Part shown: positions 1,044 to 3,921 of the stretch, in pieces | How positions within the stretch are numbered: the first letter of the stretch is position 1 | Layout of the letters: every line of letters begins with the position of its first letter | Source of the DNA: a virus | Reading direction: 5' to 3' (one strand) | Length of the DNA stretch: 24,785 bases | Virus record (IMG/VR): IMGVR_UViG_3300028550_003281 | Coordinates: 1-24,785 of that record | Made by a program: the position numbers and the translations under genes | The notes under the pieces: model-generated | Databases searched by the model: none | Told to the model about the DNA's origin: nothing | What the model saw: the letters and a program-made list of their open reading frames with translations, nothing else

Positions 1044-1238
1044 TTATCTGGTTTTACGTGTCATGTCATCAGTTACCTTGCCTATAAGCTCTCCGATTTG
1101 CAGTTCAAAGAACCCCTTCGCAAATATGCATCGATTACCTTTGCTTTCTATCTCGGTTATTTCGTTCTCACACGCTTCGATGTGATTGGTTAAAGCCTGC
1201 ACGATGATGTGGCTTTCCCATTGGTTGAATTTCTTCAT
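1044..1238 (-). CDS. Hypothetical early protein behind a tRNA-like leader (64 aa)
   Basis: Starts MKKFNQWESHIIVQALTNHI. Two helices with alternating charge (EACENEITEIESKG and LQIGELIGKVTDDM) suggest a small helical, possibly coiled-coil protein. No catalytic motif. It is the first gene after the tRNA-like element at 1263-1377, and the start sits behind a leader with AAACCATT and an ACATCATG ending. It stops 1 nt before the next start. Function unknown; what stands out is the structured RNA in front of it. Confidence 0.75.
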   Translation of the reverse strand: MKKFNQWESHIIVQALTNHIEACENEITEIESKGNRCIFAKGFFELQIGELIGKVTDDMTRKTR

Positions 1239-1262: not shown

Positions 1263-1377
1263 TCAGAGTAGGTGGATTCGAACCGCCTTCTTCCTACCTA
1301 AGTAAACATATAGTAAAGGAATACCTATGTTTAATCAGTCCTTATGTAGGATGCATCACCTTAGATGCTTTACTCCG
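1263..1377 (-). ncRNA. tRNA-like RNA 1 with greatly extended anticodon arm
   Basis: Acceptor stem of 7 bp (1371-1377 with 1264-1270, one G-U pair) and discriminator A at 1263; CCA is not encoded. The D arm is GCAT/ATGC with an 8-nt loop containing GG. The T arm (1271-1287) has loop TTCGAAT and five pairs, one a C-A mismatch. A 4-nt variable region (1288-1291) precedes it. The anticodon stem TCCTAC (1346-1351) with GTAGGA (1292-1297) encloses not a 7-nt loop but about 48 nt that fold on: TAAG/CTTA, then TAAACATA/TATGTTTA (1326-1333 with 1303-1310) and a 15-nt apical loop. Total 115 nt, about 43 more than a normal tRNA of this layout. There is no anticodon in the canonical place, so a decoding tRNA is unlikely unless the insert is removed. 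Confidence 0.65.
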
Positions 1378-1449
1378 ATGTTGTGTAGTAATGTATTAGA
1401 TTCTGATGTCGGAATCGATTGCTAAGATACAACAAACAATTCGAAATTC

Positions 1450-1457
1450 CAAATCTA
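1450..1457 (-). promoter_or_regulatory. Candidate -7 box TAGATTTG upstream of tRNA-like RNA 1
   Basis: The minus strand reads TAGATTTG, matching the Bacteroidota -7 consensus TAnnTTTG, about 70 nt upstream of the tRNA-like RNA and just after the stop of gene 1475-1774. I see no clear TTG at about -33, and six fixed bases in A/T-rich DNA recur by chance, so support comes mainly from the position in the only sizeable gap of this operon. Confidence 0.35.
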
Positions 1458-2712: not shown

Positions 2713-2778
2713 GAGCATAAAGGGGAGTCGAACCCCTATCGTACCCTATGTACGCTTGTCACCCTATGTGCTTATGCT
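2713..2778 (-). ncRNA. tRNA-like RNA 2, shortened core
   Basis: A perfect 7-bp acceptor stem AGCATAA (2772-2778) with TTATGCT (2714-2720), discriminator C at 2713, and a perfect 5-bp T arm (AGGGG/CCCCT) with canonical loop TTCGACT (2721-2737). Only 34 nt lie between acceptor and T stem, too few for normal D plus anticodon arms. They form two mini-hairpins with the same pentaloop: CAC-ATAGG-GTG, and CGTAC-ATAGG-GTACG. There is no standard 7-nt anticodon loop with U33, so decoding is unlikely. Length 66 nt. It starts 6 nt after the stop of the upstream gene and ends 9 nt before the AAACCA leader. Confidence 0.6.
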
Positions 2779-2961: not shown

Positions 2962-2983
2962 GATGTATGGGGTTGAATGGTTT
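2962..2983 (-). promoter_or_regulatory. AAACCA leader of gene 2785-2961
   Basis: AAACCA (2978-2983, minus strand), TTCAA, then CCCCATACATC directly before ATG. It matches the leaders at 1239-1261 and 2682-2703, and it decides the start of the downstream gene. A second AAACCAT copy lies about 25 nt further upstream, beside the large hairpin. Confidence 0.55.
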
Positions 2984-3005
2984 GTAAAATTGATGGTACT
3001 AATAT

Positions 3006-3054
3006 GGTTTGTATTATATATCTTCATAAATGAAGAGATATATAATACTAAACC
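3006..3054 (-). promoter_or_regulatory. Long A/T-rich hairpin in the leader of gene 2785-2961
   Basis: Three helices stack: GGTTT/AAACC (outer 5 bp), TATTATATAT/ATATATAATA (10 bp) and CTTCAT/ATGAAG (6 bp), with small internal bulges and a 2-nt loop (3028-3029). It starts 9 nt after the stop of gene 3064-3489 and replaces, in position, the tRNA-like RNAs found before the other AAACCATT leaders. No U-run follows, so it is not a standard intrinsic terminator. An RNA-processing or stability element is a reasonable inference. Confidence 0.55.
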
Positions 3055-3063
3055 TTATAAGAG

Positions 3064-3489
3064 TTAGAAGGGAGCGTCTTCGGAAAGTGTCGCTTCGAAC
3101 TCAGCCACCGCAAGTGCATCCGCTTCCAGCATACGCTTGGTGCGGAGTTTCGCCATTGCTACTTCGACTGTCTCTCCTTCGGAGAGTACGTACACCGCCT
3201 CACGTCGAGATTGGTAGCTTTTCTCAGCATCAGGCTCTAAGTACGTAGTACTTACACTAGCCTTAGCTTGTTGACGTTCCAACCTTTGGTTGCGACTCTT
3301 CGGTCTACCTGCTGCAGCCTTACGGGCTAGAGGATTCGACTTCGATGGTCTTGCCTCAACCTCTTCGAGGTTAGAGACTGCTTCCGTCAACTCCGTAAGG
3401 AGTCTCAGGGCTAGTGCCTTACGCTCCGCAGTGGGAGTGTATTTGGCTTGGTTTACTGCCTTTTGGCAGTCTTTGAAATTAACGCTCAT
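3064..3489 (-). CDS. Basic early protein, paralogue of 3610-3921 (141 aa)
   Basis: The N-terminal 45 residues (KDCQKAVNQAKYTPTAERKA... LTELTEAVSNLEEV) are nearly the same as those of the protein at 3610-3921, so the two arose by duplication. After a basic linker (KSNPLARKAAAGRPKSRNQR) it carries a unique helical C-terminal half ending in an acidic stretch. Function unknown. The duplicated helical head with a basic tail suggests a nucleic-acid- or partner-binding role. The start is preceded by AAAACCATCGAAGATG, with AAACCA 6 nt before ATG. It overlaps the upstream micro-gene by 11 nt. Confidence 0.8.
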   Translation of the reverse strand: MSVNFKDCQKAVNQAKYTPTAERKALALRLLTELTEAVSNLEEVEARPSKSNPLARKAAAGRPKSRNQRLERQQAKASVSTTYLEPDAEKSYQSRREAVYVLSEGETVEVAMAKLRTKRMLEADALAVAEFEATLSEDAPF

Positions 3490-3613
3490 CTTCGATGGTT
3501 TTAGTGATTGACATTATGATAAGAAAACAGATTGCTAAAGCAATGACGGATAGGAACTGCACAAACATGATGCTTTCAGCATCAGTAACAGCGGATAGGA
3601 ATTGCATACTCAT
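3479..3613 (-). CDS. Membrane micro-protein (44 aa) wedged between two paralogues
   Basis: ATG at 3611-3613 overlaps the stop of gene 3610-3921 as ATGA, and TAA at 3479-3481 lies inside the next gene. The product is MSMQFLSAVTDAESIMFVQF, then LSVIALAICFLIIMSITKTI, ending EDER: a short N-terminal part, one clear transmembrane helix at about residues 16-37 and a charged tail. The double overlap and the otherwise unexplained 120-nt gap between the paralogues support translation. Role unknown; single-span micro-proteins of phages often act on host membrane proteins, which is an analogy only. Confidence 0.6.
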   Translation of the reverse strand: MSMQFLSAVTDAESIMFVQFLSVIALAICFLIIMSITKTIEDER

Positions 3614-3921
3614 ACGGCGTAAACTTCAACCCCTTTCGGAGCAACCCCTTTAGGGGCTTTGATTACTGACTGACTACTTAGCATAGCTAAGAGTTGAGCC
3701 TTAGTTAGCTTCGCTAAGTCCTTCTTAGCCACCTTCGGTGTAGCTTTCTTCGTAGCCTTCGGCTTTGCCTTAGCCTTTGGCTTAACCTCCTTGAGGTTAG
3801 AGACCGCCTCGGTTAACTCCTTTAGGAGTTTGATTGCTCTTGCCTTACGCTCTGCGGTTGCTGAGTATTTAGCTTGGTTCACTGCCTTACGGCAGTCTTT
3901 GATGTTTATGTCTTTAGACAT
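3610..3921 (-). CDS. Lysine-rich, histone-H1-like early protein (103 aa)
   Basis: Start chosen at ATG 3919-3921 (MSKDINIKDCRKAVNQAKYS): it aligns with the start of the paralogue at 3064-3489 and lies directly behind an AAACCATACATCATG leader; an in-frame ATG further upstream would swallow that leader. The head (residues 5-45) is the shared paralogous helical domain. Residues about 46-75 are an Ala/Lys/Pro-rich tail (KAKAKPKATKKATPKVAKK) typical of histone-H1-like DNA-coating proteins, followed by a short LAKLTKAQLLAML helix. DNA binding is inferred from composition. It is the first gene of the minus-strand module. Confidence 0.8.
   Translation of the reverse strand: MSKDINIKDCRKAVNQAKYSATAERKARAIKLLKELTEAVSNLKEVKPKAKAKPKATKKATPKVAKKDLAKLTKAQLLAMLSSQSVIKAPKGVAPKGVEVYAV

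Follow-up and report, generated by a model that had tools for sequence, protein, structure and literature searches.

Results

A tRNA-like structure lies among the early genes

The window analysed here is a 24,785-nt stretch of viral DNA (IMG/VR record IMGVR_UViG_3300028550_003281, positions 1 to 24,785). Its source virus infects marine bacteria and falls in a podovirus group with a terminase common to Flavobacterium and Cellulophaga phages. Among the early genes of this virus lies a tRNA-like RNA, here called TLS-A, which is read in the direction of its neighbours (Table 1). The gap from the upstream ORF to TLS-A is 97 nt and holds a promoter-like block, so that a clear gene junction exists at the 3' side only, where a 64-aa ORF follows. 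The block is close to the Bacteroidota promoter consensus TTTG/TANNTTTG, from which it differs by one mismatch. A recurring leader of the AAACCATTTAA...CATACATCATG kind was seen before several early ORFs (window ~1239-1262, 2682-2705 and 2962-2985, minus strand) and is possibly a shared translation-initiation signal.

Table 1 Features of the tRNA-like elements and their surroundings (window positions unless another record is named)
Feature	Position	Strand	Description
TLS-A, tRNA-like RNA	1263..1377	minus	115 nt, 5' end at 1377
TLS-A acceptor stem	1377-1371 / 1270-1264	minus	CGGAGTA / TACTCTG, 7/7 paired, one G-U
TLS-A D arm	1353..1368	minus	GCAT[CTAAGGTG]ATGC, 4-bp stem, 8-nt loop with GG
TLS-A anticodon stem	1351-1347 / 1296-1292	minus	TCCTA / TAGGA, 5 bp, 6 with an extra C-G
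TLS-A 50-nt "anticodon loop"	1297..1346	minus	folds further; identical in G007
TLS-A T arm	1271..1287	minus	GGCGG[TTCGAAT]CCACC, one C-A mismatch
TLS-A discriminator A	1263	minus	CAA next, not CCA
Promoter-like block	1422..1453	minus	TTTG-N20-TATCTTAG, upstream of TLS-A
64-aa ORF	1044..1238	minus	ATG ~25 nt after TLS-A; G007 homologue 81% aa
TLS-B variant of the window	2714..2778	minus	acceptor AGCATAA/TTATGCT, T arm AGGGG[TTCGACT]CCCCT, no anticodon arm
139-nt element of Cellulophaga phages	L313 1180-1318 = phi38:1 20817-20679; MT732433 49296-49434		

The earlier prediction for this site, made from the sequence alone, was a tRNA-like RNA whose spacings are normal apart from an anticodon loop of 50 nt; this was confirmed segment by segment. 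TLS-A carries a 7-bp acceptor, a T arm with a loop of the TTCRANN type and the GG of the D loop. Its 2-nt spacer AA joins the 5' strand of the acceptor to the D arm, a single A separates the D arm from the anticodon stem, and the variable region is 4 nt (AGAA). A 7-nt anticodon loop with U33 is not present in TLS-A, and the 50-nt loop takes its place. The further helix proposed inside this loop (TAAG/CTTA and TAAACATA/TATGTTTA) was found as described, together with an additional GGTA/TACT helix and the apical loop TTCCTT. The minimum free energy was -35.9 kcal/mol (z = -3.9), and none of 200 shuffled sequences folded as low.

The arms had also been called canonical, which held for the acceptor, D and T arms and the TTCGAAT loop but overlooked the C-A mismatch in the T stem, the A (not U) at position 8 and the C (not A) at position 14. 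As U8 and A14 are both absent, the core contacts of a tRNA are missing. The original prediction gave no strand; TLS-A is read from the minus strand, and a plus-strand reading of 1263-1377 was rejected because the D and T arms then fall in the wrong order.

Standard programs overlook TLS-A

ARAGORN, suggested earlier as a check, called nothing at TLS-A at default settings. With introns allowed it called c[1262,1377] as tRNA-Asn(att) with a "41-nt intron", both with the intron range set to 0-3000 and, at a threshold lowered to 90%, with 0-200. The Rfam tRNA model RF00005 gave no match to TLS-A. No group I or group II core was found in TLS-A with Rfam, and a group I intron or another known RNA family was rejected for lack of an Rfam match; the earlier argument that the insert is too small for a group I intron stands, since 41-50 nt leave no room for the core. 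The predicted fold of TLS-A contains no bulge-helix-bulge, since the combination of 1x1 loop, 4-bp helix and 7-nt bulge seen there is not one. A tmRNA was likewise rejected: TLS-A is 115 nt long and has no RF00023 match, and TLS-B (see below) gave only a 17-nt match in the T arm, at 14 bits.

Blastn of TLS-A against annotated phages returned chance-level matches only. Two matches to the TLS-A pattern in bacterial genomes look like chance, and one of them overlaps an ordinary tRNA-Met. Standard tools miss TLS-A and the sister elements TLS-B and TLS-C, so that such elements are probably under-counted.

TLS-A is conserved in a slot with exchangeable contents

TLS-A was compared with its counterpart in the related genome G007 (L081). 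The two were identical at 114 of 115 positions, the whole 50-nt loop included, and at the single difference an anticodon-stem pair that is A-U in the window is A-C in G007. The ORFs beside the element were 87% (downstream) and 81% (upstream) identical between the window and G007; at third codon positions the values were 80% and 72%, respectively. These results indicate that TLS-A is under selection. Recent local exchange could also raise the identity, but such an exchange must have ended near the element edges. Two pattern scans of viral contigs returned G007 only, with no third copy of TLS-A, which is known from these two near-identical copies only. Compensatory stem changes, whose lack was named earlier as a refuting outcome, were instead seen in the sister families (see below). 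TLS-A is neither a chance match nor a normal tRNA.

The promoter-like block, in the form TTTG-N20-TANNTTNG, is common to five genomes (the window, G001, G002, G007 and G021). It is followed by TLS-A in the window, by a TLS-E-like element plus TLS-A in G007, and by TLS-E plus an ordinary tRNA-Tyr(GTA) in G021. In G001 and G002 the block leads directly into the ORF and the slot is empty. The slot therefore accepts tRNA-shaped cassettes, and optional ones.

Related flavophages carry a family of remodelled tRNA-like elements

A strict descriptor, which required a T arm bordered by an acceptor stem with all pairs formed, was run over 2.6 Mb of related loci. It found 83 distinct elements, of which nearly all were tRNAs or tRNA-like; an equally large shuffled sequence gave no hit. 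The sister elements keep the acceptor stem, the T arm and the GG loop, and the remainder is remodelled.

TLS-B, present in about a dozen contigs, is 45-47 nt long and consists of an acceptor, the hairpin GCAC[AYAGG]GTGC and a T arm, without an anticodon arm. The window carries a TLS-B variant (2778-2714) in which the hairpin unit ACATAGGGT is duplicated; it starts 6 nt past an ORF stop and lies ~32 nt ahead of the ATG of ORF 2681-2466. A long AT-rich inverted repeat was seen at window ~2994-3064, and a similar hairpin, AGAAGGTTTARTATAT...TTCATTTATGAA...ATATAAACC, directly 3' of TLS-B in several relatives. TLS-C is 93-115 nt long, with the acceptor GTGAGYG...CACTCAC followed by TCTGG, a long arm whose loop is usually GTGATG, and a hairpin with a TTGGTT loop adjoining the T arm. 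TLS-E is 118 nt long in G021. Two more tRNA-like candidates of new shapes were seen on the minus strand of G032 (L275 3451-3506, 56 nt, and 3549-3708, 160 nt).

The stems of the sister families covary. All 84 acceptor and T-stem cells of TLS-B were paired, and two-sided changes affected 6 of the 12 positions. For TLS-C, RNAalifold predicted 19 pairs, 10 of them with two-sided changes.

TLS-D is a D-arm-less element of 76 nt with the anticodon loop of tRNA-Ile(UAU), found at ~100 loci (e.g. L014 4027-4102) and nearly invariant over its length. Canonical tRNA-Ile(TAT) occurred in 16 loci and TLS-D in 101, and both together in none; both precede tRNA-Arg(TCT), with shared spacings of ~4 and ~254 nt. 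The Rfam tRNA model scored TLS-D at 30.5 bits, with the D arm deleted, 18 nt inserted in the variable region, and the CUUAUAC loop aligned exactly on the anticodon loop of the model. TLS-D therefore looks like a replacement tRNA and may still decode AUA.

One virus group thus holds canonical, D-arm-less, long-insert and anticodon-arm-less forms side by side. No account of these elements was found in the open-access literature, which weakly supports their novelty; as far as the searches reached, this family of flavophage tRNA-like elements is undescribed.

Most elements lie at gene junctions, also in cultured phages

The elements share the orientation of the genes around them, and the majority are found on the sense strand between genes of one direction. 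Most copies of TLS-B and TLS-C begin 4-14 nt past a stop codon, and for many of them an ATG follows 15-42 nt after the end. For 10 of 17 elements, a sense stop and a sense ATG were both found at a distance of no more than 50 nt; the random expectation is 0.12 elements. Sense-strand tRNA-like structures at gene junctions, a feature of t-elements, were found here as well, for TLS-A at its 3' side only. A promoter search gave no match close to TLS-B or TLS-C; they are therefore probably co-transcribed with the genes, and a free form would need cutting from the mRNA.

Two cultured Cellulophaga phages of the genus Callevirus, phi38:1 and Calle_2, carry a tRNA-like element of 139 nt, unannotated in phi38:1, with canonical D and T arms and ~80 nt replacing the anticodon arm. 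Between the two phages four pairs of this element had changed; all were kept, one via a two-sided change. In phi38:1 the element lies 11 nt past gp031 and 28 nt ahead of gp030, and in both phages the gene 28 nt downstream encodes the RNA ligase RtcB. RtcB was found in these two of the 29 related phages and not in the other 27, among them the TLS-A carriers, the window and G007, which are partial contigs. The non-structural ORFs checked in relatives were a ribonucleotide reductase, a primase/helicase, a PDDEXK exonuclease-like protein and unknowns. Panino has an unannotated 91-nt element between CDS0022 and CDS0023 (gaps of 9 and 22 nt), and a 109-nt element of Gundel_1 carries the annotation tRNA-Tyr(GTA). 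ARAGORN also called a tmRNA with the tag AQIEANMEAVNAILNLEVAVGV in phi38:1 (KC821614 26805-27164, minus) and Calle_2 (MT732433 42950-43309, plus); the phi38:1 record has no tmRNA annotation at these positions.

Discussion

With moderate confidence, we propose that TLS-A is a non-decoding "t-element" that would be cut from a polycistronic early mRNA by the RNase P and RNase Z of the host. TLS-A would be transcribed at the head of the early operon. Its acceptor/T-arm half and the elbow of GG loop and T loop would be recognized by host RNase P, with a cut at 1378/1377, and by RNase Z or a different 3' nuclease, with a cut behind 1263. Processing in this way would place the 5' end of the mRNA ~25 nt upstream of the following ATG and would set free a small RNA of ~115 nt that may carry a CCA tail. 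As the 50-nt loop stands in for the anticodon loop, this RNA would not decode.

The half that the sister elements have in common is the part recognized in tRNAs by RNase P, RNase Z and the CCA enzyme. That this half is shared and the decoding half variable, together with the position at gene junctions, fits a use in mRNA punctuation. Extensive truncation of tRNAs is tolerated by bacterial RNase P (PMC4919922), and the t-elements of plant mitochondria are cut by RNase P and RNase Z and CCA-tailed, not aminoacylated (PMC11658184). Several results count against punctuation: the empty slot in G001 and G002 means that it is dispensable there, the near-invariance of TLS-D exceeds what a mere cutting signal needs, the one change between the two TLS-A copies breaks a pair of the anticodon stem, and TLS-A, 97 nt from the upstream ORF and behind a promoter-like block, has a clear gene junction on its 3' side only. 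More tentatively, the tRNA-shaped modules of Bacteroidota phages might in general diversify and punctuate polycistronic mRNA, as anticodon-arm-deleted forms, forms with the GG-loop segment moved beside the T arm, a D-arm-less and possibly decoding tRNA-Ile(UAU), and a Callevirus module paired with a phage RtcB.

The original prediction left a choice between a tiny intron and a non-decoding mimic. The mimic is better supported and the intron unproven, because the parts that the processing enzymes (RNase P, RNase Z and CCA enzyme) recognize are kept while U8 and A14 are absent, because TLS-B dispenses with the anticodon arm, and because the slot in relatives holds tRNA-Tyr, other tRNA-like RNAs or nothing.

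It is also conceivable, though rather unlikely, that the released RNA acts in trans as a tRNA mimic, serving either as a Y-RNA-like scaffold or, for some host enzyme that binds tRNA, as a decoy or inhibitor, and that the mRNA position is merely a convenient expression route. The high conservation, insert included, the varied bodies on a constant acceptor/elbow half and the slot shared with a real tRNA-Tyr agree with such a role. A precedent is the tRNA-like domain of Salmonella YrlA, which is uncut by anticodon nuclease and was suggested to be a competitive inhibitor (PMC7790460); a TLS-A decoy would escape an anticodon nuclease, as an example target, because it has no anticodon loop. However, a Ro60/TROVE gene was found in none of the 29 related phages (some records are fragments), no YrlA match exceeded the cut-off, and the tight stop-to-ATG placement would be left unexplained.

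We consider it improbable that TLS-A is a tRNA whose insert of ~41 nt is removed by a nuclease and a ligase such as RtcB, so that an anticodon loop of 7 nt remains. Outside the 50-nt loop, the spacings are all tRNA-like, ARAGORN with introns reports exactly such a tRNA-Asn(att), and the 139-nt element of phi38:1 and Calle_2, in which ~80 nt replace the anticodon arm, gives this reading added interest because it lies directly upstream of the RtcB gene. On the other hand, TLS-A lacks U8 and A14, no bulge-helix-bulge is visible in it, and the splice point chosen by ARAGORN is arbitrary. RtcB was found in 2 of 29 phages only and not in the incomplete contigs that carry TLS-A, and TLS-B has no anticodon arm to restore.

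A decaying tRNA gene with an insertion and no present role would account for the T-stem C-A mismatch, the loss of U8 and A14 and the A-C mismatch in G007. Decay is nevertheless very unlikely given the conservation of TLS-A (99% identity against 81-87% in neighbouring genes), and compensatory changes in the sister families speak against it as well. Chance resemblance, to which the few close homologues of TLS-A might point, has a negligible probability in view of the fold shuffles (0/200), the empty 2.6-Mb descriptor shuffle and the conservation in G007.

Mitochondria are the best-known source of tRNA-like processing signals. Their use by dsDNA phages, if real, would offer a bacterial system for the minimal needs of RNase P, RNase Z and the CCA enzyme, and would also show how tRNA genes turn into non-decoding modules. 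As cultured Cellulophaga phages carry one such element, the proposal is testable now.

Several known systems resemble these elements in part. Group I introns of bacterial and phage tRNA genes are also inserted in the anticodon loop, but they differ from the TLS-A insert in the size and Rfam match noted above. The canonical tRNA-Ile(UAU), tRNA-Arg(UCU) and tRNA-Tyr(GUA) of the same phages share the kinds of slot, the acceptor/T-arm geometry and the 3' flanks CAA/CTA (mostly not CCA), but have 7-nt anticodon loops, and those scored reached 54-73 bits with the Rfam tRNA model, unlike TLS-A, TLS-B and TLS-C. MALAT1 mascRNA and menRNA have a tRNA-like part, mascRNA being made by RNase P and RNase Z (PMC4919922), and plant-virus tRNA-like structures mimic the acceptor half; both belong to unrelated organisms, and the phage elements have no indicated role in 3'-end formation or replication. 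Bacterial Y RNAs of the YrlA type are non-decoding tRNA mimics too, with reports from phages among the works cited in PMC12282133 and PMC7765460. They lie next to Ro60, whereas the phage elements lie inside gene runs, and identity with Y RNAs was rejected on the absence of Ro60/Rsr (TROVE) from the 29 phages, some of them fragments, and of an RF02553 match over the cut-off. The t-elements of plant mitochondria (e.g. 5' of cox1, 3' of ccmC) are likewise tRNA-like structures at mRNA ends, non-translational and substrates of RNase P, RNase Z and the CCA enzyme (PMC11658184). Compared with them, the phage elements come from DNA phages of Bacteroidota, where cleavage is a prediction, occur up to several per genome, and are more strongly remodelled, with the anticodon arm absent, the GG arm moved or inserts of 50-80 nt.
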